In this document: positions 10,904-64,000 of the stretch, in pieces | How the letters are laid out: each line of letters opens with the position of its first letter | Position numbering within the stretch: the stretch's first letter is position 1 | Assembly (NCBI RefSeq): GCF_009753675.1 | Contig: NZ_WQLV01000001.1 | Coordinates: forward strand, 620,001 to 684,000 | Source: Parasedimentitalea huanghaiensis | GTDB lineage: Bacteria; Pseudomonadota; Alphaproteobacteria; Rhodobacterales; Rhodobacteraceae | Length of the DNA stretch: 64,000 bases | Reading direction: 5' to 3' | Program-made: the position numbers and the translations under genes | Notes under the pieces: model-generated | What the model was told of the DNA's origin: nothing | The model's database searches: none | The model's input: the letters and a program-made list of their open reading frames with translations, nothing else

Positions 10904-10996
10904 AGCTGCTGTCTCCAATCCTGCTCATGGCTGGTGTCTTGTCTTGATCCCAAGATCAGGCGCGCCCGGCCTATCGACCGGGCAGCGCGATGGCCT

Positions 10997-12175: not shown

Positions 12176-12178
12176 GGC

Positions 12179-12592: not shown

Positions 12593-12680
12593 TTCGTTTC
12601 TCCAATTACTTCAAAGTACTAGGCATCACTTTTACGTCCCCCGACCGACAGATCAGGCTCCGCCTCATGTTCTATGGCCC

Positions 12681-14010: not shown

Positions 14011-14175
14011 CACATTACTCCGCAAACTGACGTCCCTTTGGGACAGAATTGAAAACAGCGGGCGCACCTCTCCCCATGCCGCTCGGACGGAGGGGAGCAG
14101 CTGGACGGCACAGAGGTGGTTGAAGTGCACCCGCTCACGCAGCCGGGTTGCCGGCCGCGTCATCGGCTTGACGGT

Positions 14176-15357: not shown

Positions 15358-15399
15358 CTACATGTCCTGTCTGTTTGATTGTTGCGCTAATGCACCCTG

Positions 15400-15957: not shown

Positions 15958-15985
15958 CAGAAACTCCATGTAACATATTGAATTA

Positions 15986-16201
15986 TTACAACATCAGGAA
16001 TGATCGAAAGGCCTGTGCCAAAACCACCGCAGCCACGCCGTAAACTGTGAACCACAACCGGCGATCTAACCGTTCCATCATCTGTTCCAGACGGTCTAAC
16101 CGCCGGTTTAGATTATCCTGCTGCAGCTGGTTCACTCTCTCATGCGCCGCCAGACGTAACCCCGGTGCGCAATCAAAGGAGGGTGGATACCCGTCATTCA
16201 T
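15986..16201 (-). CDS. GTA gp3.5-like small membrane protein
   Basis: This 71-residue protein sits between portal and protease genes, where Rhodobacter-type GTAs have a small gene. Residues about 22-50 form a charged coiled-coil stretch (RVNQLQQDNLNRRLDRLEQM) and residues about 50-68 a single membrane segment. Its ATG overlaps the portal stop by 8 bases and GGAGG lies just upstream. Its role is not established; a membrane-linked assembly or release function is a guess. Confidence 0.8.
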   Translation of the reverse strand: MNDGYPPSFDCAPGLRLAAHERVNQLQQDNLNRRLDRLEQMMERLDRRLWFTVYGVAAVVLAQAFRSFLML

Positions 16202-17375
16202 CCTCCGCACCTCCGTCTTCTGGCGGCAAACCCAACAAGGTCCGCTTTTCACTTCGGCTTAAAAACTCAGCCGAGCTAACCCGCGCCCATTGCGCGTCTC
16301 GCTCACTGGACAATGCCGCCACCTGATCAAGATCCGGCTTCAACGTTAGGGGTTCACCGTTAAATCCCGTCAGCCAATGCATCAATGTTGCGACGACGCG
16401 GGTGACCAACGGTACTATTGTTAGCCGGTAGAACGCCCGATTGGCTTCTTGGTAATTGGCATATGTCGCATCACCCTGGATCCCCAGCAGCATTGGAGGA
16501 ACCCCAAAGGCCAGCGCAATTTCACGCGCGGCTGCCTCTTTGGTCTTCTGGAACTCCATATCGCTGGGCGAAAAGCCCATAGGTTTCCAATCCAGACCAC
16601 CTTCCAAGACCATTGGCCTTCCGGCGTTGCGTGCACCCTGAAAATTCGCTTCTATTTCGTCACTTAGACGGCGGAACTGATCATCTGCCATGGTCCCCTG
16701 TCCATCAGATCCTTTCCAAACCAAGGCCCCCGAGGGACGTGCGGCGTTGTCCAACAATGCCTTGGACCACCGAGAGGCGCTGTTGTGAACGTCCACCGCC
16801 ATTGCTGCCGCCTGAAGCGGTGACAGACCGTAATGATCGTCCTGAGGATGGAAACTTTTGATATGGCATACGGACGAGCGAGTTCCGGCTATCTCAAAGC
16901 GATGTTTGCGCCCGCCCACCTGATAGTCATACCCCTGCGGCCAGCCATCGGTGCCGGGCACCACAGTAACCCGGTCCGAGCGCAACACATGCAGCTCCAA
17001 TGGCAACCCGTCGTCTCCAGCCACGGCCTCGACATAGGCATTGCCGGACAGAAGCAACTGACCAAACAGAGTTTCAAACAGTTCGGCCCGCCCTTGCGCG
17101 GCATTTGGATGGGCAAGAAGGGCCAGCACCGGATGCTGTTCAAACCGTTGCTGTTGATCCTGTAGCACCAAAGGCAGCGCTGCCGCTGACTCGGCGATCA
17201 GTTTGACACAGCGAAAGCCAACTGGGTTGCCTGCGAAACCGCTGCGGATCAAAGAACTGCTGTCGCGCGGGCTCCAGGCGGCACGACCCGCACTGTGCCA
17301 GGCCACCACATGGGATGCAGCGCTTGCCTTTTGCTCGATAGGTTTGTTTTTGCGCCTCAGGACGTCAAAGACCAT
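16194..17375 (-). CDS. GTA portal protein, HK97 family (gp3)
   Basis: The 393-residue portal forms the twelve-fold DNA entry ring at one capsid vertex and docks the terminase. The family is recognised by GFAGNPVGFRCVKLIAESAA near residue 47, LLLSGNAYVEAV (about 109-120), HPNAAQGRAELFETL and the segment AFGVPPMLLGI in the C-terminal half. GAGGA lies upstream of the ATG. It is separated from the large terminase gene by about 180 bases containing a hairpin. Confidence 0.92.
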   Translation of the reverse strand: MVFDVLRRKNKPIEQKASAASHVVAWHSAGRAAWSPRDSSSLIRSGFAGNPVGFRCVKLIAESAAALPLVLQDQQQRFEQHPVLALLAHPNAAQGRAELFETLFGQLLLSGNAYVEAVAGDDGLPLELHVLRSDRVTVVPGTDGWPQGYDYQVGGRKHRFEIAGTRSSVCHIKSFHPQDDHYGLSPLQAAAMAVDVHNSASRWSKALLDNAARPSGALVWKGSDGQGTMADDQFRRLSDEIEANFQGARNAGRPMVLEGGLDWKPMGFSPSDMEFQKTKEAAAREIALAFGVPPMLLGIQGDATYANYQEANRAFYRLTIVPLVTRVVATLMHWLTGFNGEPLTLKPDLDQVAALSSERDAQWARVSSAEFLSRSEKRTLLGLPPEDGGAEDE

Positions 17376-17524
17376 GACTATTCCTCATCCTCAAGTTTGG
17401 GACACTGTCGCCCCTTTGCTGAGAAAGTTATCCCTGATGGCCCTGAAGATTTTCGATCCAGAGCGAACGCCACCTGCGCAACACCTAGTGAACAAAAGCC
17501 CATATTAATCTGAATTCATTGAGT

Positions 17525-17552
17525 AAACGCCTGCCAGAAAGGCAGGCGCTTT
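17525..17552 (-). terminator. Hairpin between large terminase and portal genes
   Basis: A perfect 8-base stem (17528-17535 with 17541-17548, loop of 5) sits 9 bases after the large terminase stop. On the minus strand only three T follow, so it would be a weak terminator; on the plus strand four T follow. It may act as an attenuator or RNA stabiliser inside the GTA transcript. Confidence 0.6.
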
Positions 17553-17556
17553 TGTA

Positions 17557-18858
17557 TTACAGGGCTCTGAGCCGGGGCCTGAGCACCATGGCTGCGGGGC
17601 TGATTATCAGATCATGCAAAGCCCAGACCAGTGCATCCACCCGGTCCGGAGAACCCGCCCCCTGATATCCTTGCGACGTCATTTGGCACATCTGCTGTTC
17701 CAGATCCGCCAGGCCCGGCGCATGCAGCACCCGCCCCTGTTCGTACAGTGCAGCGACCGGCTCCGCGCGGGCCGATTTCCCGCGACTGGCGTGCAGTGGC
17801 TTGTAGGGCACCAAAGGGTCCACTTGCCGCAATACATTCTCCACCAGTGCTCCGCCCTGATTAACCTCGGCGACCAAACGATCAGCGCCAAATTCCTGCA
17901 TTGCGGCAATTGCAGCCTGGGCCCATGCCAGCGGCCTAACCCCCTGGACGGTTCGGTCCGCCAGCACATAGGCGCGCCAGTCTTGTGGCGGCCCCTGCAG
18001 AATGGCACCGGTCACGACAATCCCGCAGGCATCTGACGTTTTGCCAGCACTCACCGCCGGATCAACAGCCACCACCACGCGATCCAGTTTAGGAACGTGA
18101 TCCTGCAGCGCCGCCTGAACCATTTTACCGGTCCACAATGCGCCTTCGACATCTGACAGCAGAACACCTTCCAGCTCCTGTCGCCCAAGCCGCGTCCCTG
18201 CATATCGTGCCCGTACTTCGGTCAGGAAGGACGGCGCCAGATTGGCCCGGTTTGCCTCTGTTGTAGCATGGGTTTCGACTGTGGAGGGAAGCGCCAGTAT
18301 GTCACGCAGGACCTGAGCATTCCGCGGCGTGGTGGTGACACACACCCTTGGGTCCTGCCCCAGTCGCAGGGCAAATTGCAGCATATCCCAACTGGACCGA
18401 GCTTTTTTCCATTTGGCCAGTTCATCGGCCCAGGCCGCATCAAACTGAGGCCCGCGCAGCGCCTCGGGATCGTGGGCAGAAAAGGCCTGCGCTGTCGCGC
18501 CATTGGGCCAGATTAACTTGCGCTCACCAGCCTTCCATGTGGGCCGTCGATCCGGCGGTGAACAGGCAAGAATGCCACTGTCCCCCTGCACCATTACATC
18601 ACGCACCTGATCATAGGTTTCGCCCAACAAGGCCACGCGCCGGGCAGACCCCGGTTCCATCGGCAGGCTGCCTTCGACCTGTGCGCGCACCCATTCGGCC
18701 CCGGCACGGGTTTTGCCTGCTCCGCGCCCTCCCAGAATGACCCAGGACCGCCAGTCGCCTGTGGGTGGCACCTGATGCGACAGGGCCCAGTGTTCGAACA
18801 GATAGGGCAGCGCAATCAGCAGTTCATCCGGCAGTTCTTCCAGAAACATCTCGCTCAT
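17557..18858 (-). CDS. GTA large terminase (gp2)
   Basis: This 433-residue motor-nuclease packages host DNA into GTA heads. The Walker A motif GGRGAGKT lies at about residues 43-50. A Walker B-like segment DAAWADELAKW is near residue 145. The RNase H-like nuclease domain has acidic residues in VVAVDPAVSAGKTSD and LVAEVNQGGALVEN, with a further Asp in SPDRVDALVWALHDL. The ATG at 18858 overlaps the small terminase gene by about 35 bases; an ATG 9 bases downstream is an alternative. All motor and nuclease residues look intact. Confidence 0.92.
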   Translation of the reverse strand: MSEMFLEELPDELLIALPYLFEHWALSHQVPPTGDWRSWVILGGRGAGKTRAGAEWVRAQVEGSLPMEPGSARRVALLGETYDQVRDVMVQGDSGILACSPPDRRPTWKAGERKLIWPNGATAQAFSAHDPEALRGPQFDAAWADELAKWKKARSSWDMLQFALRLGQDPRVCVTTTPRNAQVLRDILALPSTVETHATTEANRANLAPSFLTEVRARYAGTRLGRQELEGVLLSDVEGALWTGKMVQAALQDHVPKLDRVVVAVDPAVSAGKTSDACGIVVTGAILQGPPQDWRAYVLADRTVQGVRPLAWAQAAIAAMQEFGADRLVAEVNQGGALVENVLRQVDPLVPYKPLHASRGKSARAEPVAALYEQGRVLHAPGLADLEQQMCQMTSQGYQGAGSPDRVDALVWALHDLIISPAAMVLRPRLRAL

Positions 18859-19180
18859 CACAGCAGGTACGTAAGGAAGCAAGTCGGCAGCGCAGATCGG
18901 AGCGCAGGCTGTCGAGATCAAGGGCGGGGCCGCTTTCTGTGAGGGATGCAAATTGGCTGCTTTGTGCGACAAGGGTTTTCTCCACTTTCTGGCAGTCCCG
19001 GATAAGCCCCTCAAGCTTGGCGAGTTGTGGTTTTGAGATGTCGCCGCCCACCTCTTGTTCAGCCTCCAGCTGCTCGCGCAGGGCCTCGGCCTCGTTGCGC
19101 AATCGCATGATGGACTCCTGTAGAGACCGAAGCAGATCAGCGGTTTTTTCTATGTCTGGAGACAGTGGGTTTTGCACCAT
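18824..19180 (-). CDS. GTA small terminase (gp1)
   Basis: The 118-residue protein is the first gene of the GTA cluster. It is mostly helical with a coiled-coil-prone centre (about residues 10-45, LRNEAEALREQLEAEQEVGG), as in GTA small terminases, which activate the large subunit without recognising a specific pac site. The ATG at 19180 was chosen because AGGAAA lies about 9 bases upstream; the frame stays open to 19276, and ATG 19213 is an alternative. Confidence 0.82.
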   Translation of the reverse strand: MVQNPLSPDIEKTADLLRSLQESIMRLRNEAEALREQLEAEQEVGGDISKPQLAKLEGLIRDCQKVEKTLVAQSSQFASLTESGPALDLDSLRSDLRCRLASLRTCCDERDVSGRTAG

Positions 19181-19361
19181 AGTCTGGATTTCCTCATGCG
19201 TTGTGATCCACATGAGAGACTCAAAACGGCCAAAGGAGTTGAACCCAAAGGCCGCTGTGATGTCTTCCAACTGCAATACAATCTATACGCGAAAATCTTG
19301 CAAAAGTCAAGACTTACAGGACAAGGTGCGTTCGGTGGGTAGGCAACAGCCAGCTATACCG
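19181..19361 (-). promoter_or_regulatory. Putative GTA promoter region
   Basis: This 180-base stretch lies between the first GTA gene and the next gene upstream on the same strand. The GTA structural transcript of R. capsulatus starts just upstream of gp1 and depends on the activator GafA; the same is expected here. I see no clear CtrA box and no convincing -35/-10 pair. Confidence 0.4.
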
Positions 19362-19754
19362 TCAGGCGTCCAAGTTAGTTTCAAGACTCACTGAGACATT
19401 CAACTTATTGCCGTCCAAATCGCGCACATAGGCTCCATAGTAATCTGGATGATAGCTGCGCGGGCCGGGTTTGCCTTCGTCTGTACCGCCGCACTCCAGC
19501 GCCGTTGCGTGAAACGCGCGTACGGCCGCAGCATCCGGCGCGTAGAACATGAACTGGCTGCCATTGCCGAAGGTGGCCGGTTGGTCGTTAAAGGGTACGA
19601 TGAGAAACACGCTTATTCGCCCATCAGCGCCTGCATAGCCCACTTCGCGCGGTTCGGTCAGGACACGGCGCATGCCGACGGTTGCCAGGACAGTGTCGTA
19701 GAACTGAGTGGCGGCAGTGATGTCATTGGTGCCGATGCATACGCCGGATAGCAT
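19362..19754 (-). CDS. VOC (glyoxalase-like) family protein
   Basis: This 130-residue protein has a vicinal oxygen chelate fold with two beta-alpha-beta-beta-beta modules. The first begins CIGTNDITAATQFYDTVLATVG and the second contains YHPDYYGAYVRDLDGNKL, the typical ending of glyoxalase/dioxygenase-like VOC proteins. AAGGA lies upstream of the ATG. The substrate is unknown; such proteins include glyoxalases, isomerases and antibiotic-binding proteins. It stands alone before the GTA promoter region. Confidence 0.85.
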   Translation of the reverse strand: MLSGVCIGTNDITAATQFYDTVLATVGMRRVLTEPREVGYAGADGRISVFLIVPFNDQPATFGNGSQFMFYAPDAAAVRAFHATALECGGTDEGKPGPRSYHPDYYGAYVRDLDGNKLNVSVSLETNLDA

Positions 19755-40706: not shown

Positions 40707-41552
40707 ATGACAAGCCTTCTGACAAACAATGGCGCAATGGTTGCTCTTCAGACATTGCAGACTGTTACCAACAACCTGACTGAAACACAGACACAGATTT
40801 CGACCGGTAAACGCGTTGGATCCGCCAGTGATAACGCTGCCGTTTGGGCCATTTCCAAGACAATGGAATCCGACATCGCGGGTTTTGAATCGATCTCGGA
40901 CAGCCTGGCCTTGGGTGAAGCAACTGTTGCTGTTGCTTCTGCCGGTGCTGAGCAAGTTGTTGAAAAGCTGACTGAAATCAAAGAACTGCTGGTCTCTGCG
41001 CAGTCTGAGAACGTCGATCACGACAAAATTCAGAACGACATCACCAAGAAAACCGAGCAGGTTGCCTCGATCATTTCTGCCGCTCAGTTTAACGGTGCCA
41101 ACCTGTTGGCCACTGATGTAGATGGCAACGGTGCGACCTCATTGGGTGTTCTGGCCTCGTTAGACCGGGTTGGTGCAACTGGTACCCCTTCGGCAACTGA
41201 AATCGCTGTTGATACCGTTGATTTTGAAGCCAATGTTGACCTTTCGGGCATGACAACAGTTGCCGATGCCACCAGTGCTGCGACTGCTCTGGGTGAAATC
41301 GAAGCCTTCCTGACCACCGCCATCGATGGCGCTGCGGCTCTGGGTGCTGACTCCTCCCGCCTCAAGGACCAGGGCGGCTTTGTGAACAAGCTGACCAACG
41401 CCATGAAGCAGGGTATCAGTGCGCTGACAGACACCAACATGGAAGAAGCCTCTGCCCGACTAAAAGCGCTGCAGACACAGCAGCAACTGGCCGTACAGAC
41501 CCTGTCGATCGCCAACAACGCACCTTCGGCAGTGATGCAGCTGTTCCGCTAA
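40707..41552 (+). CDS. Flagellin 1
   Basis: The 281-residue protein is a short flagellin. The N-terminal D0/D1 helix (SLLTNNGAMVALQTLQTVTN, ISTGKRVGSASDNAAVWAIS) and the C-terminal helix (SARLKALQTQQQLAVQTLSI ... AVMQLFR) are standard; the middle (about 135-190) is brief, so there is no D2/D3 surface domain. It builds the flagellar filament outside the cell. It is almost identical to flagellin 2 at both ends and differs mainly in the middle. Regulation is probably by CtrA and at the mRNA level. Confidence 0.94.
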   Translation: MTSLLTNNGAMVALQTLQTVTNNLTETQTQISTGKRVGSASDNAAVWAISKTMESDIAGFESISDSLALGEATVAVASAGAEQVVEKLTEIKELLVSAQSENVDHDKIQNDITKKTEQVASIISAAQFNGANLLATDVDGNGATSLGVLASLDRVGATGTPSATEIAVDTVDFEANVDLSGMTTVADATSAATALGEIEAFLTTAIDGAAALGADSSRLKDQGGFVNKLTNAMKQGISALTDTNMEEASARLKALQTQQQLAVQTLSIANNAPSAVMQLFR

Positions 41553-42233: not shown

Positions 42234-43082
42234 ATGACAAGCCTTCTGACAAACAATGGCGCAATGGTTGCTCTTCAGACATTGCAGACTGTTACCAACA
42301 ACCTGACTGAAACACAGACACAGATTTCGACCGGTAAGCGCGTTGGATCCGCCAGTGACAACGCCGCCGTTTGGGCCATTTCCAAGACCATGGAATCCGA
42401 CATCTCAGGTTTTGAAGCCATCTCTGACAGCCTGGCCCTGGGTGAAGCAACTGTTGCTGTTGCCTCTGCCGGTGCTGAGCAGGTTGTTGAAAAGCTGACA
42501 GAAATCAAAGAACTGCTGGTCTCTGCGCAGTCCGAGAACGTCGATCACGACAAAATTCAGAACGACATCACCAAGAAAACTGAACAGGTTGCTTCGATCA
42601 TTTCTGCCGCTCAGTTTAACGGTGCTAACCTGCTGGCAGCAGATGTTGACGGCAACGGCGCCACCTCAGTCGGTGTTCTGGCCTCTCTGGACCGTGTAGG
42701 CGCAACAGGTACCCCTGCAGCCACAGAGATCTCTATCGATACTGTGGACTTCGAAACTGACATCGACCTTGCGTCCAACTTGACGACAGTGTCCGACGCT
42801 GCCAGTGCTGCGACTGCTCTGGGTGAAATCGAAGCCTTCCTGACCACCGCCATCGATGGCGCTGCGGCTCTGGGTGCTGACTCCTCTCGCCTCAAGGACC
42901 AGGGCGGCTTTGTGAACAAGCTGTCGAACGCCATGAAGCAGGGTATCAGTGCGCTGACAGACACCAACATGGAAGAAGCATCAGCCCGCCTGAAAGCGCT
43001 GCAGACGCAGCAGCAGCTGGCCGTACAGACGCTGTCGATCGCCAACAATGCACCTTCGGCAGTTATGCAGCTGTTCCGCTAA
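42234..43082 (+). CDS. Flagellin 2
   Basis: The 282-residue flagellin is a tandem duplicate of flagellin 1. The N-terminal 50 residues are the same and the C-terminal 90 nearly so; the differences cluster in the short variable part (about 140-195) with one extra residue. The same leader hairpin and promoter element precede it, but the CtrA-type box has a substitution, so the two copies may differ in timing or level. Confidence 0.94.
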   Translation: MTSLLTNNGAMVALQTLQTVTNNLTETQTQISTGKRVGSASDNAAVWAISKTMESDISGFEAISDSLALGEATVAVASAGAEQVVEKLTEIKELLVSAQSENVDHDKIQNDITKKTEQVASIISAAQFNGANLLAADVDGNGATSVGVLASLDRVGATGTPAATEISIDTVDFETDIDLASNLTTVSDAASAATALGEIEAFLTTAIDGAAALGADSSRLKDQGGFVNKLSNAMKQGISALTDTNMEEASARLKALQTQQQLAVQTLSIANNAPSAVMQLFR

Positions 43083-47410: not shown

Positions 47411-47874
47411 GACAATTGCCCACTGAATAAAACACTCTATCCCTTTGAGATGTAGCATCCTGTCCGTGAAGAAAAGGGTTTAGTTGATACACCATTGTAG
47501 TCATTGCATATTCACCACACGACAACCGATCAAAACAGATCAAGATGTCCTTCAGCTGTGCGCCTGTAACAGGTTGAACGGGTCGTCAAACTCTAGGAAT
47601 CGCCCTCATCCAATCCCAGATCTGCACCCTTCAAACGGCTTGCAAACACAACGGTCGGCTTCATTAAATTTAGTCCTTTATGAGAATGAATTCAGATCCT
47701 GGCATTAAGGATTTAGTCGTAATCTGGGCATAGATAAAGTCCTGCACCTTGTACTAAGGGGGCACGGCGACCACGGGTCGATCGTATTGTCAGAATGACG
47801 CCAAAGGCCAACCAGAGCGGTTCGGCTGTAAATGGGGTCAAAAAACCCCCAATATGACTAAAGGAATACATGCT
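47411..47874. other. Divergent promoter region between porin 2 and flagellin 3
   Basis: About 460 bases without a gene. Near the right end, TGTCAGAATG (47788-47797) recurs from the flagellin 1 and 2 leaders. A hairpin TGGGG (47833-47837) with CCCCCA (47846-47851) lies just before the ribosome binding site of flagellin 3. The GCCGATAA element and the GGAA hairpin of the other copies are missing. Confidence 0.5.
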
Positions 47875-48723
47875 ATGACAAGCATTCTGACAAACAATGG
47901 CGCAATGGTTGCTCTTCAGACTCTGCAGTCTGTGAACGACAATCTGACCACTGCTCAGAACGAAATTTCCACCGGTAAACGCGTTGGATCCGCCAGCGAC
48001 AACGCCGCTGTATGGGCGATTTCGAAAACAATGGAATCCGATATCGCGGGTTTCGAAGCCATCTCCGAAAGCCTTTCAGTTGGTGAAGCCACTGTTTCGG
48101 TTGCTTCGGCTGGTGCTGAGCAGATCGTTGAAAAACTGACTGAAATCAAAGAGCTGATCGTTTCCGCTCAGTCTGAAAACGTCGACCACACCAAGATCCA
48201 AAACGACATCGACGCAAAAGCTGAACAGGTTACAGCAATCATCAACGCTGCTCAGTTCAACGGTGCAAACCTGCTGATGGCTGACGTTGATGGCAATGGC
48301 GCGACATCTTTGGGTGTTTTGGCCTCGCTTGACCGTGTTGGCGCAACTGGCACTCCCACCGCGACCGAAATCACTGTTACTACAGTTGACTTTGAAACCA
48401 ACATCGACCTGGCCTCAAACCTGACATCGTTCACCAACGTCACAGATGCGACAACCGCACTGGGTGAAATTGAAACTGTCCTGGCCGTGGCCATCACTGG
48501 TGCCGCTGCACTGGGCGCTGACACAGCTCGCCTGAAAGATCAGGGTGATTTTGTTGGTAAACTGACAGACTCCATGAAAATGGGTGTTAGCTCGATGACA
48601 GACACCAACATGGAAGAAGCTTCGGCCCGATTGAAGGCCCTGCAAACCCAGCAACAGCTGGCTGTGCAGTCGCTCTCGATTGCAAACGGTGCGCCACAGT
48701 CGATCATGACACTGTTCCGCTAA
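47875..48723 (+). CDS. Flagellin 3
   Basis: The 282-residue flagellin has the same layout as flagellins 1 and 2 but is clearly more diverged (SILTNNGAMVALQTLQSVND, ISTGKRVGSASDNAAVWAIS, C-terminal QSIMTLFR). It has its own, different leader, so it is an older duplicate with separate control. AAAGGA precedes the ATG at 47875, about 10 bases away; the frame is open 7 codons further up. Confidence 0.93.
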   Translation: MTSILTNNGAMVALQTLQSVNDNLTTAQNEISTGKRVGSASDNAAVWAISKTMESDIAGFEAISESLSVGEATVSVASAGAEQIVEKLTEIKELIVSAQSENVDHTKIQNDIDAKAEQVTAIINAAQFNGANLLMADVDGNGATSLGVLASLDRVGATGTPTATEITVTTVDFETNIDLASNLTSFTNVTDATTALGEIETVLAVAITGAAALGADTARLKDQGDFVGKLTDSMKMGVSSMTDTNMEEASARLKALQTQQQLAVQSLSIANGAPQSIMTLFR

Positions 48724-54723: not shown

Positions 54724-55175
54724 GGCTTAGTTGTACAAATCCACAGACGCTCGTAATTCTCCTTTTCTTGGCGGGACTTAACCTGCGATCCCTGTCGCAG
54801 GTTGACCAAGGGCAATGTAGCGATAGAGCGGCGCGACGCGGATTTGGACTTCCGCGAACCGACGGTCAAAATCCCTGGCCATGAGGCTTTGCCCCTCAAC
54901 TTCTAACAATGCATCTTAGTCTCGACGCGGCGCCCGCGGAGCTAACCGCTCCTACGCCGCAGAGTACAGCCCAGATATCGTAATGTGTTTACGGCTTTGT
55001 TCCGGGCAAAGGCTCCTGCCTTGTCGGTTGCCACGACTTGGTACTCTTGCGCGATGGAATAACAGCACAGGCATTCCACTCGCCTTCGCCCTATAGCTTG
55101 ATGCCGGTGCTATCGGTCAAGCGGTCACGGACTCCGAGATACGGAAGGCTCACGTCCGGCCTCTTTTGATGGTGG
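54724..55175 (-). mobile_element. Decayed IS5-family insertion sequence
   Basis: On the minus strand 55171-55031 reads as an IS5-type transposase (PDVSLPYL, DSTGIKL, an in-frame TAG at 55091-55093, GEGEWNA), then jumps to the later motif AVIPSRKSTKSW, so an internal part is deleted. In another frame 54905-54778 gives the C-terminus (GQSLMARDFDRRFAEVQIRV ... ATGIAG stop). GGCTTAGTTGTACAAAT at 54724-54740 resembles the terminal inverted repeat of this group. The other end is missing; similarity fades just before the tRNA fragment. Confidence 0.8.
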
Positions 55176-55206
55176 CAACGGGTGTTAAAGCCATCAAAAA
55201 ACAAAG

Positions 55207-55260
55207 TGGTGCGGGTGAAGGGACTCGAACCCCCACGCCTCGCGGCGCCAGAACCTAAAT
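55207..55260 (-). other. tRNA-Leu(UAG) 3' fragment, probable attachment site
   Basis: Read on the minus strand, these 54 bases run from the anticodon loop (TTTAGGT, anticodon TAG) through the variable arm, the T arm (GGGGGTTCGAGTCCC) and the acceptor strand CACCCGCA to the encoded CCA. The 5' half of the tRNA is absent. A 3' tRNA fragment is the usual scar of tyrosine-integrase insertion into a tRNA gene. The orientation puts the old chromosome to the left and the element to the right. Confidence 0.85.
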
Positions 55261-55348
55261 TTTACGTGGATTGTTGAAATTCAAAGGCTTAATCAAAAAG
55301 TTTCCCAAGACATAGCAAGAACGAAGGAAGAAAGCGGGAAATGCTCTT

Positions 55349-55534
55349 TCAACTTGATTTGCGAATAATTCGCGCGCCGTGCTGTAGAGTAGCTGTCTGG
55401 TTGGACGACAGCTTTAGCACTACAATCTCGAAAAGCGGACTTGCGACGGCCATACCGTCCGCCGGCTGATCTGAAACAATATGGCCATTCTGATCACGAA
55501 CCACGATGCGGTGATCAACTTGTATTTTCCCCAA
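55349..55534 (-). CDS. Small protein of unknown function
   Basis: The 61-residue frame starts at TTG 55534 with AAAGGA 7 bases upstream. It has no signal or membrane segment; a hydrophobic patch (about residues 29-42, ASPLFEIVVLKL) is flanked by charged stretches. It is not recognised. It lies 110 bases downstream of the repeat protein gene in the same direction. Confidence 0.45.
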   Translation of the reverse strand: MGKIQVDHRIVVRDQNGHIVSDQPADGMAVASPLFEIVVLKLSSNQTATLQHGARIIRKSS

Positions 55535-55648
55535 GCTGATTTCCTTTCACTCACTAGCGCTTTTGATCTTTGTTACCCGATTTGAAAAAAGGAACAAACC
55601 GCAAACAAATGCGAATTTCGAAAACCGCAAGATATGGTCTGCAGCTTT

Positions 55649-58117
55649 TTATCGGTTCGCCAGTGCCTTTGCCATTTCTACAGCCTGGTCCGCAGGACTA
55701 CTCGCCTTTGAAAACTCAACCTTGTCAGCAGCCAAAGCTGTTGAAAGTTGATCAAAAGCTGCTACATCGATTTTAGTAAGCCCTTCCGATAGCAGTTCAA
55801 GAGCATCCGCACGACTGTGATGGAAACCAGCTAGGCGAATGTTGTAACGGTAAAGCCCACCAAGCGTTGCCAATAGAAAAAGTAAAAGAATACCGGGTGG
55901 CATTTGCTGTGCCAATGTTTGCCACCACCCGTCTTGGTTCGAACGCAGAAGTTCATTCCAACCTTGCAAGCAAGAAAGGGTCAAAGCCTCTAGGTTTCCA
56001 TTGGGCTCAGACACCTTTGCGTTGCTTCGCGGCTCTAATTCACCTCTGCAAATTGTCAGAAATTTCTCAAAGTCCCGATTTTCCTCTTCGCGGACCAATG
56101 ATTGTGGAAACTGATTTAGAACTTCTAAGTTCGCCTCAGCGTCCATCAAACGGTTGCTCTGAAATTCAAGTTCAGCCTGAAGACGTGCTACTTGTCGACG
56201 CCTAGGAGTAAGAACATTAAAAATATGCCTAGGCTGCTCATCCATGAAAAAAATCAGCTTTTCCAGCTGAGTTCTTTCCTTGGTCAGCAAGCCCTCCGAT
56301 CCAATCACAAAATCGGCAGCATTTTCATTACTAACTAGTCCCGAACTCCCAAGCGATGCTACGGCATCAGATAGATGAGACCCAAATCTCATCAACAGGT
56401 TATAGCCATAGAAAAACGCCTCTCCCTCCCCCAGATCGACATGTTTAACAAATCCACCCTGATACTCCGGTAAAGCAGAGAGTGTAAATGAGGCCCCACT
56501 ATCGCTTGATTGAAAGGTCGAGTTCCCACCTCCGTAAATGACTATTGTGCTATCGCCCAAGATGGCATGTTCTTCGTAAGCGAAACTGGAATCGATTCCC
56601 CCTGGCTCTGCGGGATACGAAAATGAAACTCCGTTGTCCGTAGATCTGAGAATCGCACCCGAGGTCCCAAAGATAAGAACGGTTCCGTCACCCATGACCG
56701 CAATTTCGTTGTAAACTTCATTGTCAATTATTCCCTTACCCCAACCTGTTAGAGAAAAAGTACTTCCATCACTCCTGGGTATTGTTGAATGCGAAAATGA
56801 AACTCCATTGTCTTCTGATCTGAGGAACGCGTGTTCATCCCCTACAATCAACACAACGCCTCCACTTAGTTTGGCATGTTTGTAGAATACTCCATCGATA
56901 CGTGTATCCTCTGGCAACTCTGAATACGAAAAGGAGGCCCCATAGTCCTCTGATCTAAGAACTTTCCCTTCGTCGCCGAAAACCAGCAACACGCCGTCGC
57001 CCAAGTCTGAAATTCCATGGGTCCTGCCCCATCCTTCTTTGTCCGTCAGCAAAAATGAACGAGAAAAGGAGGTTCCGTTATTCATCGATCTAAGAACCGT
57101 TCCGTAGTCCCCAAAAATCAAGAATACACCGTCTCCCAGATCGGCAAAATGATGATAAATCTCAGCGGGCTGCAGATCATCATGCAATGCAGAGCGAGTA
57201 AATGAGCCACCTCTGTCCCTCGAAATGAGGATTTTGCCATTACTTCCAAAAACCAGAATTGAACCGTCGCCCAATTTGGCATAATCGACGAAGCGTTGCT
57301 CAATGCCCGTCTTCCAGTCTGGCAGAGCAGAGGCTACAAAAGTAGCCCCACTATCGATTGACTGGAAAACCGCGCCATTACTTCCAAGAATTACAACCGT
57401 GCCATCATCTAAATCGACAATGTCATAGACACTTCCGGCACCGTCTAGTTCTTCTGGAAGTGTCGAGATCGAAAAGGAAATGCCGTTGTTTGTCGATCTA
57501 AGAACCGTTCCGTAATCCCCAAAAATCAGCACGGTGCCATCAGACAATTTGATATGCTCAATAAAGTCCTCAGTTTCGTTGAGCCCCTCAGGCAAAACAA
57601 CCCTCTGAGAATACTCTTTGACGACCGACACCCTCAAAAACGAATCTCTATTTCCATAAAGAAGCACGTCGTTTCCTAGTTGAACGTGCCCAGAGAAATT
57701 AAGTTCTTGGTTATTTTCCGATTGAAAGGATCCATCCGTGAATTTCGCCCCCAACTCCAACTCAATCCTCTTTTGAGTAGCTACACGCTTCGAAGATATG
57801 GTGTTGATCGCATCTTCAGCCTTTGTCGTGGTCAAAACCAATGCACCACGTCGTCCATCAACATACAGTTTCCAAAAAGGTTGGCCTAAATAAAAAAACA
57901 GACCCACTACGACCACTAGATACAGGAAAAGCAATAGCCGTGATGCCCGAACTGCAGCTGTCGTAGCACGCAGGCGTTGCTGACGAACCAATCCACCAAT
58001 ACGACCATCAGGAACATTCCATTCGGCATTGAGAGCCGCGTATCTTAGGTCAACTCGGCGATCAAATTCTGCCTGCAAACCATGCGAGTAACTATTTTTC
58101 ACAATATGATCGCCCAT
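55649..58117 (-). CDS. Two-TM membrane protein with eight BNR-like repeats
   Basis: The 822-residue protein has a basic N-terminus, one membrane segment (about residues 60-78), a large external domain, a second membrane segment (about 740-756) and a cytoplasmic tail. The external domain has eight repeats of about 45 residues (roughly residues 188-550), each of the type LGDGTVLIFGDYGTVLRS-(S/T)xxNGxSFSxSxLPE, i.e. BNR/Asp-box blades as in sialidase- or Ycf48-like propellers. A helical stretch (about 610-690) follows. No catalytic residues of sialidases are evident. The ATG at 58117 is used; the ribosome binding site is weak. It closes a likely operon with the two genes upstream. Confidence 0.8.
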   Translation of the reverse strand: MGDHIVKNSYSHGLQAEFDRRVDLRYAALNAEWNVPDGRIGGLVRQQRLRATTAAVRASRLLLFLYLVVVVGLFFYLGQPFWKLYVDGRRGALVLTTTKAEDAINTISSKRVATQKRIELELGAKFTDGSFQSENNQELNFSGHVQLGNDVLLYGNRDSFLRVSVVKEYSQRVVLPEGLNETEDFIEHIKLSDGTVLIFGDYGTVLRSTNNGISFSISTLPEELDGAGSVYDIVDLDDGTVVILGSNGAVFQSIDSGATFVASALPDWKTGIEQRFVDYAKLGDGSILVFGSNGKILISRDRGGSFTRSALHDDLQPAEIYHHFADLGDGVFLIFGDYGTVLRSMNNGTSFSRSFLLTDKEGWGRTHGISDLGDGVLLVFGDEGKVLRSEDYGASFSYSELPEDTRIDGVFYKHAKLSGGVVLIVGDEHAFLRSEDNGVSFSHSTIPRSDGSTFSLTGWGKGIIDNEVYNEIAVMGDGTVLIFGTSGAILRSTDNGVSFSYPAEPGGIDSSFAYEEHAILGDSTIVIYGGGNSTFQSSDSGASFTLSALPEYQGGFVKHVDLGEGEAFFYGYNLLMRFGSHLSDAVASLGSSGLVSNENAADFVIGSEGLLTKERTQLEKLIFFMDEQPRHIFNVLTPRRRQVARLQAELEFQSNRLMDAEANLEVLNQFPQSLVREEENRDFEKFLTICRGELEPRSNAKVSEPNGNLEALTLSCLQGWNELLRSNQDGWWQTLAQQMPPGILLLFLLATLGGLYRYNIRLAGFHHSRADALELLSEGLTKIDVAAFDQLSTALAADKVEFSKASSPADQAVEMAKALANR

Positions 58118-58151
58118 GTTCAAACACTATTTCTGACTCCACTGTTGGTTC

Positions 58152-58550
58152 TTAACGACAGTACCCAGCACGTCGAATTCGTGATTTGGCCGCGGGCGTT
58201 TCTAGATGGCGATACCGACCACCAGAGTATCGCTGGCAATCAAGCGCATAACCCGCAGAGATTACCGCAGCACCAATGTCTTCCCCTCCGGCGTAGCAGA
58301 TTCCGATGTATCGGTCATAAGACCGCACGCCATTCAATTGACAATCGATCGATTTCCCCGTCAAGAAATTCACCATCCAACGCCGAGCATCTTTACCCGC
58401 ACTCGTTTTCAATTCTGGAGCATCAACGCCCTGCAGCCGGACAGGTGTTCCATCAACAACAATCGTATCTGCGTCCCGAACCTGAAGACTTGCAGACAAA
58501 ACTGGACCGGTAGCAAACAGAGCTACCGCAAGCAAAATGCTGAACTTCAA
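58152..58550 (-). CDS. Secreted thermonuclease-like nuclease
   Basis: The protein of about 132 residues has a signal peptide (to about residue 20) and a staphylococcal nuclease-type OB-fold domain: VRDADTIVVDGTPVRLQGVDAPELKT-like start (Asp, Arg and Glu of the active site present) and SYDRYIGICY (second Arg). It would act on DNA or RNA outside the cytoplasm. The start is TTG at 58550, supported by GGGAGG 7 bases upstream. It lies 18 bases after a small membrane protein gene and 34 before the BNR-repeat gene. Confidence 0.85.
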   Translation of the reverse strand: MKFSILLAVALFATGPVLSASLQVRDADTIVVDGTPVRLQGVDAPELKTSAGKDARRWMVNFLTGKSIDCQLNGVRSYDRYIGICYAGGEDIGAAVISAGYALDCQRYSGGRYRHLETPAAKSRIRRAGYCR

Positions 58551-58583
58551 AAATTTCCCTCCCAAACTGGACCTGTTCTGAGC

Positions 58584-58787
58584 CTAACCCTCACGAATTT
58601 CAGCCAAAATCGCCGCGAGGGCCAAAAAGATGAGGCAAAAGGCTGCGACCGAGATATTTAGGTCTAGGTCCCTTCCTGGACCCGCGTACCGCAGAGCAGC
58701 CTCGTCATTTGCAAAAAGTTTTATTGACGCGCTAAACGCGCTCAGCCCGATCCCGAACCATCCTACAATACGCAAGATTGCAACCAA
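58584..58787 (-). CDS. Small two-TM membrane protein
   Basis: The 67-residue frame begins at TTG 58787 with a strong TAAGGAGG 8 bases upstream. It has two hydrophobic segments (about residues 3-22 and 42-62). No family is recognised. It heads the likely operon with the nuclease and the BNR-repeat protein; all three genes start with, or lie in, TTG-rich start contexts. Confidence 0.65.
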   Translation of the reverse strand: MVAILRIVGWFGIGLSAFSASIKLFANDEAALRYAGPGRDLDLNISVAAFCLIFLALAAILAEIREG

Positions 58788-59035
58788 TTAAAATTCCTCC
58801 TTAAATAAATCAAATCACCAGTATTCGCCTAATCGCAAACTGGCCTCTCTAGCTGGAACTACCCTAGGTAGGGGATTGCTCCTTAATTGAACGCCCGTGA
58901 TCTCGAAGCGGCATAATCAATTTTGTCAAATGAACAGGACTGGGCTGCGCTGATAGATAGTTGTTGCCGCGCTGACAGGTCCTTAATCTCTTCGCAGTGC
59001 AGCCTCCCGGTATTCTGTCGTGAGTGGTGACCGTC

Positions 59036-60598
59036 TCAGACAGGTGCATTTGCCTTATTCTTCATGAGAACCACTACCTCCTTGCCAATTTTATCTAGGT
59101 TCTCGTTGACAAATTTTTCGACTAGAGGTCTGCAAACCTTTTCAGATTTAGCCTTTTTTTCGATTGCAGATCCCGCAATCTCTGGCGTTTCCCCCAACTT
59201 AACCACACGGTTACATATATCGATATGGTAAGAGTTGTACCAATTCACGAAATACTCCAAAATCGACGATGACCCGGTCGACCAAACAACATCCACGGCC
59301 TTATTTACGACTTTCATGGAAATGTCTGCTTCTACAAGATTTGGATAAAGAAATAGCAGTTCACCTCCATATTTTTTGAAAAGATAAGGCTGCATTTTGC
59401 GCAGATTTTTATCAATAACTTTCCCTATCAAGCCGCTTTTTTGGATGTACCGTCCCATTTCATCAGCGAAGGGAGTAAGGCGTTTTGCTATTGCGCCCCC
59501 CACTTTAGAGAGTACGACACCCTCTGCTGATTTGATTGCGACACGGCAGGTTGCCCCTTTAAATCCTCCGTTGGCTGTCCATTTAGAGGAGTTCAGGAGA
59601 CCACTGAACGCTTCGGTCAGTGATTGTTTATAGCCAGCAGTTATAGCTGATGCCAGAACAGGTTTTCTGGTAATAAGCGTGAGCATAATCTCCAACGCAA
59701 CAGTGGATACGTCATCAGCAACCGACACAACATCTAAAAAAGCGTCAACAGAGGCCCCACTATCATCAACTGTCTTCTGTAAGGTACGCCCTGCAATGTT
59801 TATATATGTGATTGCGTTCCTTCGATGTTTGTCCCCTGTGCTCATGCTTTTTGCATCAATCTGTGCAACTTTTGTTTTTGCCTTTTTTATTGCAGTTTCT
59901 GCCTTGGAAAGATTGTCGCCAGCGGTTTTATAGTATCGCATATTCCCCGCGAGCAAGACGGCTGCTGAGGCGATGGTATCATTATGTAGGATATTGTAGG
60001 CGCGTCGAACACTTGCAATACGTTCTTCAACCGACCTTACTTGCTCAGATAAGCTATTAGACAACTGTTTGAGACATTTTTCTATTTCGGAATCGTCGCC
60101 AGCACACTGCTTGCCCCCGATTTTGATCACTCGAACTCTTTTGTCTTCTTTTTTTGCGGCGGGTTTACTCAGAGCTTTGTGTGTGGCTCCGTCTGGAGTG
60201 ATGACGCCATCAACTCGCAGGCATTTTTCCTTTTGAAAGGCCTTAAGAGCAGTGAGGAATGAGCTGTCAACTTTTGGCGTCATAGAGACTTCTTTGAACC
60301 CCACACTCTTGGCATGTTTGTTCAAAAGTTGCTTGATGGTTTTCAGGTCGTCGGGGCGGTTCAAGCTCCACTTACCAAGTCCAATCTGCGCATATATCTT
60401 GCCAGTTGGCATCTTAATTTTAGGGACGAAGACCTCCCAGCCAGGTTCAATTTTGCTAGGAACCTTAGTCTTTTTGCGAAGTTCTTTATTGAAAGGCGCA
60501 GCCCAGATTTCTTTTTTCCAGTCAACAATCATATATGCCTTGGCAATCTCAGATAGCGTTTCACCCTTCTTTACAATGTGCTTTTGAGTTGCGGCCAT
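59036..60598 (-). CDS. LysM / peptidoglycan-binding protein with large unknown C-terminus
   Basis: The 520-residue protein starts with a LysM domain (HIVKKGETLSEIAKAY ... IEPGWEVFVP, about residues 7-60). A peptidoglycan-binding-like segment follows (about 70-145, LKTIKQLLNKHAKSVGF, VDGVITPDGATHKALS). Residues about 175-265 are helical and Lys-rich; the remainder (about 270-510) has alternating hydrophobic stretches and three or four cysteines. There is no signal peptide. LysM plus PG-binding modules without a signal occur in cargo of contractile systems and in toxins, but nothing here proves that. GAGGA lies upstream of the ATG. Confidence 0.75.
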   Translation of the reverse strand: MAATQKHIVKKGETLSEIAKAYMIVDWKKEIWAAPFNKELRKKTKVPSKIEPGWEVFVPKIKMPTGKIYAQIGLGKWSLNRPDDLKTIKQLLNKHAKSVGFKEVSMTPKVDSSFLTALKAFQKEKCLRVDGVITPDGATHKALSKPAAKKEDKRVRVIKIGGKQCAGDDSEIEKCLKQLSNSLSEQVRSVEERIASVRRAYNILHNDTIASAAVLLAGNMRYYKTAGDNLSKAETAIKKAKTKVAQIDAKSMSTGDKHRRNAITYINIAGRTLQKTVDDSGASVDAFLDVVSVADDVSTVALEIMLTLITRKPVLASAITAGYKQSLTEAFSGLLNSSKWTANGGFKGATCRVAIKSAEGVVLSKVGGAIAKRLTPFADEMGRYIQKSGLIGKVIDKNLRKMQPYLFKKYGGELLFLYPNLVEADISMKVVNKAVDVVWSTGSSSILEYFVNWYNSYHIDICNRVVKLGETPEIAGSAIEKKAKSEKVCRPLVEKFVNENLDKIGKEVVVLMKNKANAPV

Positions 60599-61101
60599 TC
60601 AATATTCCTCACACAATCAAAAAAACGCTGCATATGCCGCAATAACATTACCAACCGCGTTTTCTAATGAGCAACGCACAGTCTTTGGGCAATATGATAA
60701 GTATAGTTGAGGTTTACCGTTTCTAAAGGAAAATCGAACTGGGTTGAAATTCAACCATGAGTAACTGTTGTATATTTGGAGTGGATTACCACTCCACCTG
60801 GTTGAAGGTGCGGGTTTTCAGATACTGGTGACATAGGCGAACTGGAACTGCCACAGTTTGACGCCTCTCCGGTATTGGACTTGGACCGATACACAGCGCC
60901 ACTCATCACTCGGCAGAATATCCGCCGACACAAATGCAAATTCCGCTCCACGCCGTAAAGCTAGCTCTTCACCATGCACCGCCACATCCGATGGGTCTGT
61001 GAACAAGAACTGAGGAACTACCGGCTGATCAAAGTCGACTAGATCATCCAAACCCGAACTTTCTCAGACATGCTTTACTCGCCTCGCAAAGTGCCTTTTG
61101 T
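60599..61101. other. Gap with one doubtful small frame
   Basis: About 500 bases. The minus strand holds an open frame of 77 codons (60818-61051) starting at TTG without a clear ribosome binding site. The ATG just upstream (about 61072) leads into a different frame that ends after ten codons, so the stretch may be a broken gene. No family is recognised. Confidence 0.35.
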
Positions 61102-61980
61102 TCATCTGCGCGGAGTTGCTAGAGAGTTAAGAAATAGTCCAATGAACACGATCCCGAACAATGTTTGCAATGCAACTAACATCCTCCCTCGGTGTGTGAC
61201 TGGCGCAATATCCCCATATCCGAGCGTAGTAATTGTAACGGTACTGAAATACAGCATTCTCGCAAATTTTCCGTCCAAGGCGTCGAGACCACCCGCGGAC
61301 GCTGACCTAAAGAGAATGACATCGTCCACTATTTTACTCGGCAAAACTATGCTTGGCAAACCTAATGTCGTCTCTTCATCAACGGTACCGAAACAACTGT
61401 TCGCGGCTTGCGCGATACTCGAATAAGATATTTTTGTTTCCCCTGTATAAGATTCGTTCTTCACAAATAGTGCGGTCCGTCCTCCGACACCGAATTGCTT
61501 CGTCTTGGTGTTCAACTGATACTTACTTGCATTTCTACCGGGGATTTCAAAATGGTCTATGTGGTGGCGTGAGTAGCCAACCACAAGACCTTCGGGTGGT
61601 AGTGTTCCAAATGACCTATCTGCCCTGTAATCTCCGACAGTCAAAAAAGCGTCGCGTCCTCTTCCTTCAAACCAACTGTCCTCGACATCAGGATCGAAGC
61701 CAGAAACTTCAGAACTGAAGCCATAAATTGCGATTTCGGCTCGTCCGGTTTCGAGGTCCAATGATGGGTAAATCTTGAACGGTACAAGAACATCGCAACC
61801 CTCTGCCGCGCTGATCAGATGACTTTCAATTCTCCGTGCTAACTCGTCTAGTTGTGGGTCGAAATGCAGGTTGGATGACCTAAAATCTCTTGAAAAGAAT
61901 GAGTAGATCAGAGCGAAAAGTGGGATTAAAAGGAGATATGCTAGTCCCCACACAAATCTTCTTATTGCAGCGAGTTTCAT
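61102..61980 (-). CDS. Two-TM potassium channel with large external domain
   Basis: The 292-residue protein has an N-terminal membrane helix (about residues 9-29), about 195 residues outside the membrane, and then a pore module: filter TITTLGYGD (about 249-257) and a second helix (about 266-286). The filter is the K+ signature TxGYGD with Leu in it (TTLGYGD). In most bacterial channels the two helices flank the pore closely; here the first helix is far away. The external domain is rich in charged residues with three cysteines. AAGGAAG precedes the ATG. Confidence 0.83.
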   Translation of the reverse strand: MKLAAIRRFVWGLAYLLLIPLFALIYSFFSRDFRSSNLHFDPQLDELARRIESHLISAAEGCDVLVPFKIYPSLDLETGRAEIAIYGFSSEVSGFDPDVEDSWFEGRGRDAFLTVGDYRADRSFGTLPPEGLVVGYSRHHIDHFEIPGRNASKYQLNTKTKQFGVGGRTALFVKNESYTGETKISYSSIAQAANSCFGTVDEETTLGLPSIVLPSKIVDDVILFRSASAGGLDALDGKFARMLYFSTVTITTLGYGDIAPVTHRGRMLVALQTLFGIVFIGLFLNSLATPRR

Positions 61981-62157
61981 TTTATTCTTCCTTCGCGAGC
62001 CAGCAGCGACGGTAGAGCCCGAATTGCATGCTCGCGATCTCCTCTAAACTTTCCACTGCCTACATTACCCAAGAAAACTTGCTTTCATCAAATTCAATTC
62101 ACACTGCAGAATCTATCCCACCTTTCAAGAACTACACGTAATAGCTCCTTTGTTGGA

Positions 62158-62913
62158 CTAAGTTGTCCCCCAGTCATCAGCTCGATCCGATGGCTTAGGC
62201 CATCTTGATATCTCATCCATGTGCCCTTCAAATAGACCCTTATTTCTCAAAAATTCTATGTGTGTGATGTACCTAGATCGAAACATTCCTTCCAGCGCTT
62301 GAAAGTTCGAAACGCGAGAATGAGCAACTGATGCTATAATCAGATCGTGAAAGTTGATAGCCAGATCAACTGCGGAAACATGGAGCTCCACTAGTTGACG
62401 AGACGCCCCACCAGCTTGGGCAGCTTCCATCAATTCATCTTTCGATTTTATCAAACTTTCACCTCCCGCTCGCGCATTTAGAGATAGCTCGATCTCTAAG
62501 GTAGTTTCTCGACCTTCTCCATTGATGCTGGAAATCGAAATGGGTCGCCGCATGCTTTCGGTGATGTGAAGGTGAATTTCTCGTACCGTGGACTCTAGAT
62601 CTGCCCGTTTTTCGCGATCGTTCTGGCGTTTTATTTCCTCAGAGCGATGTCGGATTTCTTGAGAGATAGCATATGCTGAGATTGGTATCGCAATCGCGGT
62701 TACCAACGAGGACATGTAACCCGCGAATTTGACAAAATCCGTATCCACCCAAGTATCCGGGTAAGGCAAAAGGTATGCGCTTGCGCCAGCAGCAATTACC
62801 GCTACCCCCAAAAACAATACGATTTTCAAAATTCTCTCCTTAATCGGATTCGGTTCCGAGCCCCGCCCAATCGGTCCAGATCCAAACTGGTCGCACTGGT
62901 GGGGTTGTATCAA
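62158..62913 (-). CDS. Membrane protein with coiled-coil, unknown function
   Basis: The 251-residue protein has two membrane segments (about residues 28-50 and 63-83) followed by a charged helix (about 87-120, RHRSEEIKRQNDREKRADLE) and a mixed C-terminal domain. It starts at TTG 62913, overlapping the stop of the HEPN-like gene by 4 bases (TTGA), so it is co-translated with it. I recognise no family. Confidence 0.7.
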   Translation of the reverse strand: MIQPHQCDQFGSGPIGRGSEPNPIKERILKIVLFLGVAVIAAGASAYLLPYPDTWVDTDFVKFAGYMSSLVTAIAIPISAYAISQEIRHRSEEIKRQNDREKRADLESTVREIHLHITESMRRPISISSINGEGRETTLEIELSLNARAGGESLIKSKDELMEAAQAGGASRQLVELHVSAVDLAINFHDLIIASVAHSRVSNFQALEGMFRSRYITHIEFLRNKGLFEGHMDEISRWPKPSDRADDWGTT

Positions 62914-63398
62914 TCACCCCTATTTTTGTTGACAGGTGAGACGCCACGCAAGTTAAACTTCTTACCACGTTTATCGGCCACGCTTTGACCGACAGCCTTA
63001 AACAAAACACCGGCAAGATCTTGAAGCGCATCGTCTCGCAGACCCCTACGAATACCGCCCATAAAGTATCTATCGCGAGTAAACGTTTCCGTATCTTCTA
63101 TCAGGGTCAACACTTCAAATTGTTCCTCAGAAATTTTTAGCCCCAGCGAACGGCAGCAAGATCCAATAGCGCCAACTTTGTGAGAAAAGGTCCTTCTAAT
63201 CTCGCTTTCCGACATATCCTGTAAGAGCAAATAGGCCTTCAGATACAACTCTATCGCCATGACAAACAACTGACGTCTTGGAAAGGCTGGAAGATAACTA
63301 GTTTTCGTCGCATCCTCCAATAGAAGTCGCAATGCGGAGGTCTCATAGCTGCGCCCAACATTTACATAACCTATTGCTGGATCATGGATATCACCCAT
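62910..63398 (-). CDS. HEPN-like protein
   Basis: The 162-residue helical protein has an early segment (RRQLFVMAIELYLKAYLLLQ, about residues 41-60) and a RRTFSH segment (about 68-73, R-x4-H) before SLGLKISEEQF, resembling HEPN domains, which often act as RNases or nucleotide-binding partners in defence and toxin-antitoxin systems. The RX4-6H element is loose and not proof of RNase activity. AAGGAG lies 6 bases before the ATG. It lies 12 bases after the 119-residue gene and overlaps the membrane protein gene. Confidence 0.6.
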   Translation of the reverse strand: MGDIHDPAIGYVNVGRSYETSALRLLLEDATKTSYLPAFPRRQLFVMAIELYLKAYLLLQDMSESEIRRTFSHKVGAIGSCCRSLGLKISEEQFEVLTLIEDTETFTRDRYFMGGIRRGLRDDALQDLAGVLFKAVGQSVADKRGKKFNLRGVSPVNKNRGD

Positions 63399-63410
63399 AT
63401 CAGGCTCCTT

Positions 63411-63770
63411 TTATGTACCTTCCACACCAGCACCAATAACCTCGGAAACAAGCTCATAGAGAGCTGCAGCGGCATGCTCAGCACTCGGAATATCAAGATT
63501 CTTCAGGGATATAACTTTTGCTGACATCAAGTACTCAGACTGCTTAGTGGCGTAACTGCGATAAATATCAGCAGCCCGGTCACGAACTTCTTCTGCACGA
63601 GCATCTATCCTTGCTTCCAAGGCTGGTTCCAGCGAAATAAAATCGAAATCCACATCCGCCTTTGTCCTTCGTGTCAAACACAAAACATATGGGATTTGTT
63701 CCTTCTGGCAACGTTTGTAATGCAGATCAATTGCTCTCACGTCCGCTTTCGCGGCCTTCAAATATGACAT
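63411..63770 (-). CDS. Small protein of unknown function, first gene of a three-gene cassette
   Basis: The 119-residue protein is helical and charged, with LHYKRCQKEQIPYVLCLTRR near the start (about residues 16-35). No signal or membrane segment is seen. AAGGAG lies 10 bases before the ATG at 63770. Spacing of 12 bases to the HEPN-like gene makes a shared transcript likely. I do not recognise a family. Confidence 0.6.
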   Translation of the reverse strand: MSYLKAAKADVRAIDLHYKRCQKEQIPYVLCLTRRTKADVDFDFISLEPALEARIDARAEEVRDRAADIYRSYATKQSEYLMSAKVISLKNLDIPSAEHAAAALYELVSEVIGAGVEGT

Positions 63771-63917
63771 TCTAACAATTCTCCTTAGCTGGACATTCAA
63801 CATCTAACTACCTCAAAACGCACTCAAGTCACTTGATCAAAATCTAAAACAACTACAAATTGCAAGCGCCAGCCTACCGCTTGAAACATTTAGATTGATC
63901 CCGACTAGGAAATATTC

Positions 63918-64000
63918 ATGAAGTTCATTTGTTCGACAACTATTATGACGATGGTACTTGCATCAGTTGCAATCGCAGCACCCGTTGAAATTATCCAATC
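63918..64000 (+). CDS. Secreted protein, start only
   Basis: An ATG at 63918 preceded by AGGA opens a frame to the window end (27 complete codons). The N-terminus has a Lys, then a hydrophobic stretch ending in VAIAAPVE, which fits a Sec signal peptide. It is divergent from the three-gene cassette. Confidence 0.55.
   Translation, partial: MKFICSTTIMTMVLASVAIAAPVEIIQ

Follow-up and report, generated by a model that had tools for sequence, protein, structure and literature searches.

A tRNA-Leu(UAG) 3' fragment in Parasedimentitalea huanghaiensis as the far border of a probable 42.3 kb prophage with a passenger block

The window analysed here is a stretch of 64,000 nucleotides of Parasedimentitalea huanghaiensis, bases 620001-684000 of contig C11, and the element in question is an integrated one that begins at 55.2 kb and runs past the window's right end. 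The contig was read on to 724000 in a genome of 4.86 Mb, and positions right of 64000 are window coordinates continued. At 55207-55260 the window carries a fragment of a leucine transfer RNA (tRNA) gene, tRNA-Leu(UAG), identical at 54/54 positions to tRNA bases 32-85; it begins with the anticodon loop, ends with CCA and lacks the 5' half. ARAGORN found zero tRNA genes in the 64-kb window and an intact tRNA-Leu(UAG) on the minus strand at extended 97525-97609, 33.5 kb past the window. An integrase gene adjoins it. The features at the two ends are:

55202-55260, minus strand: attachment (att) repeat at the far end, formed by the tRNA-Leu(UAG) 3' fragment (55207-55260) plus 5 bp past the tRNA 3' end; 59/59 identical to 97520-97578
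96429-97430: tyrosine integrase, ending 94 bases before the tRNA; phrog_1 (2.2e-36) and Pfam Phage_integrase (3.1e-15)

The 59 bp direct repeat runs without interruption, and over 55197-55260 the identity is 63/64. Searching the whole genome with 55101-55400 returned the query itself and C11:717515-717578 only (98% over 64 bases, E-value 2.8e-25). With a longer query that included the whole tRNA, the next-best places in the same genome had E-values near 2e-7 and are presumed to be other tRNA genes. No third att copy was found inside the element, the remaining matches across 104 kb being at most 12 bases long. Intact tRNA and fragment are both on the minus strand; the tRNA 3' end is at 97525, and the fragment, further left, lies downstream of it. 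Since the repeat, the intact tRNA and the match to bases 32-85 were all found, the first-pass annotation of the fragment (anticodon loop to CCA, 5' half missing) proved exact. It had also placed the element to the right of the fragment, with an intact tRNA-Leu(UAG) and an integrase beyond 64000, and both were present there, so that its interpretation as an integrated element is supported.

The element spans 55202-97578 (contig C11, 675202-717578), with 42.3 kb between the tRNA copies. Leftwards from the integrase, its phage genes are:

92119-92835: CI-like repressor; phrog_4 (2.5e-17)
90333-91049: replication initiator
86368-87051: minor-tail-like gene, before the small terminase and apart from the other tail genes, an unusual order; phrog_1924 (1.2e-54)
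85583-86236, minus strand: small terminase
83445-85580, minus strand: large terminase; GpA_ATPase (7.1e-56) and GpA_nuclease (1.7e-53)
83240-83443, minus strand: head-tail adaptor
81738-83240, minus strand: portal
79364-81922, minus strand: head protease and major head protein
78931-79263, minus strand: head decoration protein
next, minus strand: tail terminator (weak match), then major tail protein; PHROGs
74760-77030, minus strand: tape measure; PHROGs
69931-73617, minus strand: tail J; PHROGs
68143-68388: holin
67328-68074: endolysin
down to 64806: tail or tail fibre genes

The minor-tail-like gene aside, this is the ordinary siphovirus-type gene order. The structural set searched for with PHROGs was present (terminase, portal, capsid/protease, tape measure and tail J), as was the lysogeny set (repressor and integrase), and judged by this gene set the element is a predicted prophage of siphovirus type. 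Judged by the portal, its relatives among phage records are distant. The portal gave 263 matches among 50,697 phage records, all below 60% identity, the top-ranked being those of the Paracoccus phages vB_PsuS_Psul1 and vB_PbeS_Pben1 (37% over 91-92%), and a scan of viral contigs gave one portal relative (68%, on a 6.8 kb contig). In addition, the early region holds a frame of 482 amino acids (aa) at 93073-94521 with a weak PHROG match only and zero matches in Pfam, NCBIfam and PADLOC.

The best explanation, given a probability of about 0.96, is that a siphovirus-type prophage of 42.3 kb has integrated in the tRNA-Leu(UAG) gene and extends past the right end of the window, the stretch 55.3-64.3 kb being its passenger end. 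The first-pass annotation had assigned the genes from 55.3 kb to beyond the window to the cargo of the element; this stands, with the refinement that, of the prophage, no more than this passenger end falls within the window. Integration would have proceeded by recombination, through the tyrosine integrase (96429-97430), of the phage attachment site (attP) with the corresponding part of the tRNA gene in the host. The attP would have carried the tRNA from its anticodon loop through to CCA, and the crossover may have lain within that loop. The intact gene at 97525-97609 would then consist of the host 5' half and the phage-borne 3' half, and the 3' half that the host had before would have been displaced to 55207-55260.

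The passenger block at 55.3-64.3 kb consists of eight genes, seven of them on the minus strand:

55649-58123, minus strand: 824 aa, BNR/Ycf48-like beta-propeller repeats, hydrophobic stretches near both ends; PSII_BNR (1.6e-11), Sortilin-Vps10 (8.7e-11), phrog_8700 (1.2e-17)
58152-58565, minus strand: 137 aa, SNase-like nuclease, signal-peptide-like N-terminus (by eye); Pfam SNase (2.4e-7), phrog_452 endonuclease (5.6e-13)
59036-60598, minus strand: 520 aa, N-terminal LysM-like and peptidoglycan-binding-like motifs; LysM (0.0021) and PG_binding_1 (0.0003), both below the Pfam cut-off
61102-61980, minus strand: 292 aa, C-terminal potassium-channel-like pore; Ion_trans_2 (1.2e-14), phrog_7872 (1.3e-9)
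62158-62913, minus strand: 251 aa, hydrophobic segments by eye, no family; overlaps the next gene by 4 bases
62910-63398, minus strand: 162 aa, HEPN-like by eye only
63411-63803, minus strand: 130 aa, open frame, family not found
63918-64295, plus strand: 125 aa, signal-peptide-like N-terminus (by eye), spans the window edge

The 824 aa protein, putatively membrane-anchored as read by eye, had a single weak match in phage records (E-value 3e-5) and zero relatives among the viral contigs scanned. For the 520 aa protein, matches to the endolysin families phrog_1493 and phrog_380 were obtained at about 2e-5, with zero matches in phage records, viral contigs and plasmids. The 292 aa protein contains TTLGYGDI, which is taken here to be a potassium-channel-like pore motif, and had one viral contig match, short and covering the pore only. 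Searches in Pfam, PHROGs, PADLOC and NCBIfam gave zero matches for the 162 aa and 130 aa proteins and, extended to plasmids, for the 251 aa protein; the 125 aa protein had zero matches in PHROGs, Pfam and PADLOC. Four of the eight genes are therefore without a family, and the earlier description of these genes as mostly unfamiliar was judged fair. Structure prediction without alignments gave a mean predicted local distance difference test (pLDDT) score of 43.4 for the 162 aa protein and 37.3 for the 520 aa protein, too poor for a fold search.

The block proved to be patchily distributed. At DNA level, the level at which the same-genus genomes G001-G007 were compared, it occurs in 0/7 of them (G001 being only 85% complete); presence at the same place in all relatives, named beforehand as an outcome that would speak against an integrated element, was not seen. 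Two gene-sized pieces of it lie at two separate places in G005; the protein identities of these homologues are 83% for the 162 aa gene and 84% for the 125 aa gene, the latter on another contig, and both stand in stretches of 13-20 kb without further match to the prophage. The draw of 294 other family genomes, whose rows begin at G008, was searched with three of the eight, the 292, 520 and 162 aa proteins. The channel protein had 0 relatives at E<=1e-20 and the 520 aa protein had relatives at E<=1e-6 in 6/294, one over more than 300 residues at 25% identity. Weak relatives of the 162 aa protein (E<=1e-4) were found in 2/294 and in one plasmid record. Some of the passenger ('moron') genes probably come from the gene pool of the hosts, the direction of transfer being presumed.

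Base composition was also considered. The guanine-plus-cytosine (G+C) content is 46.3% in the block, 55.3% in the other 33 kb of the element and 54.7% in the left flank. The first-pass annotation had called the right part richer in A+T, and this holds for the block; it does not hold for the element as a whole, the rest of which is at 55.3%, and the dip begins near 52 kb, outside the element. Since the dip starts left of 55.2 kb, composition was rejected as a means of setting the element boundary.

The same low G+C raises the question of whether the block is a separate small island trapped between prophage and att site, outside the phage genome. No phage structural gene was recognised in it, and the two G005 homologues among genes unmatched to the prophage would suit such an origin. 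Nevertheless, the block is enclosed by the att sites of the prophage itself, a common location for passenger genes, no third tRNA fragment forms a border, and a second integrase was not recognised among the block's scanned frames; a separate island is considered improbable. As for function, the passenger proteins were tried as a known defence system, and this was rejected, PADLOC giving zero matches for the eight. That the block forms an undescribed membrane-acting superinfection-exclusion or abortive-infection module of the lysogen is quite improbable; this reading would cover the 162 aa protein, the 251 aa probable membrane protein and the channel-pore, LysM-like, secreted-looking nuclease and propeller proteins.

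The integrase offered a further line of evidence for the prophage and its site. A match at E<=1e-60 was found in 12/294 other family genomes, and the integrase of Rhodophyticola porphyridii (Roseobacteraceae; G318) is 65% identical. Twelve loci were examined for tRNAs, 11 from the family draw plus that of R. porphyridii, G019 (39%) being without a locus; six other loci from the search that gave R. porphyridii were weak (25-28%, or 36 residues), belonged to other groups and were left out. With the group defined by pairwise identity, eight loci have integrases at least 50% identical, in G098 over only 154 residues (a partial match), and an intact tRNA-Leu(UAG) adjoins the integrase in 7/8. At the eighth, G271, the integrase has a stop codon and a tRNA-Leu fragment lies about 0.26 kb beyond. 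Among integrases 39-42% identical, the 4 kb examined showed an intact tRNA-Leu(UAG) in 0/4 cases, and one of the four lies by tRNA-Leu(CAA). In G117 a 61-base match to the 3' part of the tRNA lies 13.1 kb from the intact tRNA, with the integrase between.

These loci bear on two other explanations. Short stretches of the tRNA fragment recur elsewhere in the genome, as expected if it were a chance or duplication remnant without any integration, but 59 identical bases in the right orientation and configuration, an integrase at the tRNA, phage genes between the copies and the same arrangement in G117 make this practically negligible. A decayed prophage that has lost excision is possible, if doubtful: elements of this integrase group do decay, as the stop codon in G271 and the partial match in G098 illustrate, but here the integrase, repressor, terminase, portal, capsid, tape measure, tail J, holin and endolysin all have open frames. 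The prophage may be active and inducible.

The flanks were compared among the seven same-genus genomes. Right-flank matches were obtained in 7/7, at 71-93% DNA identity, and extended into the frame at 98353-99927. Leftwards from the tRNA, G001, G002, G003 and G005 could be read over some 18 kb or more, and in these no DNA directly past the tRNA 3' end matched the left flank or the element, except for a partial integrase in G001; the tRNA contigs of G004, G006 and G007 stop within 0.75 kb of the tRNA. The left flank is common to G004 only, up to 54723. For the most part this genome is colinear with window 204-54723, at 95% over most of the length, apart from a handful of short gaps and some less conserved stretches. 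Beyond the divergence, 9 kb of about 18 kb of G004 was searched in the source genome and gave only partial matches of at most 82%, scattered over several contigs. On the side of the window, the chromosomal flank outside the prophage holds the following feature:

54724-55201, minus strand: decayed DDE transposase remnant; its intact relative matches Pfam DDE_Tnp_1 and DDE_Tnp_1_5

Other genomes of the family contain multiple copies of similar transposase pieces. In G001, a phage-like cluster matching window 4960-19754 lies 3.6 kb from tRNA-Leu(UAG), together with the partial integrase. Because of the G004 divergence, the transposase remnant and the G001 cluster with its partial integrase at the tRNA, the tRNA-Leu site looks like a repeated insertion site, whose immediate left neighbour offers no stable reference.

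Several observations weigh against a prophage integrated at this tRNA gene. The empty site, 55206 joined to the tRNA, was not found among the same-genus genomes. G004 diverges at 54723 and continues with other genes, and its tRNA is on a separate contig that breaks off 128 bases beyond the tRNA, where the DNA resembles, by eye, a further insertion sequence. The composition shifts at about 64 kb, inside the element. The attP of a free phage was not found. Finally, within the integrase group the second tRNA fragment is on a contig other than that of the intact tRNA in G115, G244 and G271, where the fragments end at nearly the same base, and no long second fragment was found in G249, G098, G087 and G318.

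Elsewhere in the prophage, a gene for a SigZ-like extracytoplasmic function (ECF) sigma factor and, after it, a glutathione S-transferase-like gene occupy 87397-88746, where the G+C content is 47.5%. The sigma factor scored 212.3 bits against NF007215 (cut-off 212) and was above the cut-off of TIGR02959. Both genes are adjacent in 3/3 other family genomes with a close sigma factor (197 others searched), and in 15-20 kb of each of the three the remaining frames of 80 aa or more show no match to the prophage. Since they stand side by side there without other prophage matches, the pair looks captured from hosts, and a phage speciality was rejected. No report of a SigZ or ECF sigma factor paired with glutathione S-transferase in prophages was found among titles and abstract openings. 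Left of the element, the window holds a phage-like cluster at 5015-19014 with GTA_TIM, Rcc01698 C-terminal, capsid, portal and terminase domains, a set of domains that suggests a gene transfer agent. This cluster and the closest named integrase, that of R. porphyridii, would place the host in the Roseobacter group. Three flagellin genes lie at 40707-41552, 42234-43082 and 47854-48723; G004 also has copies, with matches across the set.

Read in the raw sequence, the tRNA stub correctly foretold the end of an element and the position of a tRNA and an integrase 33 kb away, and the passenger genes without a family are candidates for lysogen traits. The nearest arrangement among the integrase loci is the G117 island (C1:1340001-1356000), which shares with the prophage the tRNA-Leu(UAG), an integrase about 50% identical and the tRNA 3' match. 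It differs in carrying about 13 kb of metabolic cargo, compared with 42.3 kb of prophage here: eight scanned frames revealed an IS110-type transposase, a phosphoribosyltransferase, a peptidase M20, a dihydroorotate dehydrogenase with an iron-sulfur/flavin adenine dinucleotide partner, and a three-part TRAP transporter. Among its frames of at least 80 aa, none except the integrase matches the prophage. The integrase loci point to a group tied to tRNA-Leu(UAG) across several genera, which serves both a phage and a metabolic island. In kind, the element is ordinary, a prophage in a tRNA gene, arranged as textbooks describe and carrying some unusual passenger genes near its far end. According to the Islander description, integration splits a tRNA gene, the island restores it and a displaced fragment marks the far end (PMC4383910); of the 3919 islands in its table, 2083 use the anticodon-centred subsite and 3760 have a 3' fragment (PMC4383910). 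Islander-type islands and prophages have the tyrosine integrase, intact tRNA, displaced 3' fragment and intervening island seen here, and no difference appeared in the features compared (fragment, configuration, orientation, integrase and length, 42.3 kb falling within Islander's 2-200 kb length criterion). A precedent at a tRNA-Leu in the Roseobacter clade is given by the temperate Sulfitobacter phages A and D (PMC7305329); their repeat is 15 bp compared with 59 bp here, and the likeness is that of a tRNA-Leu only.

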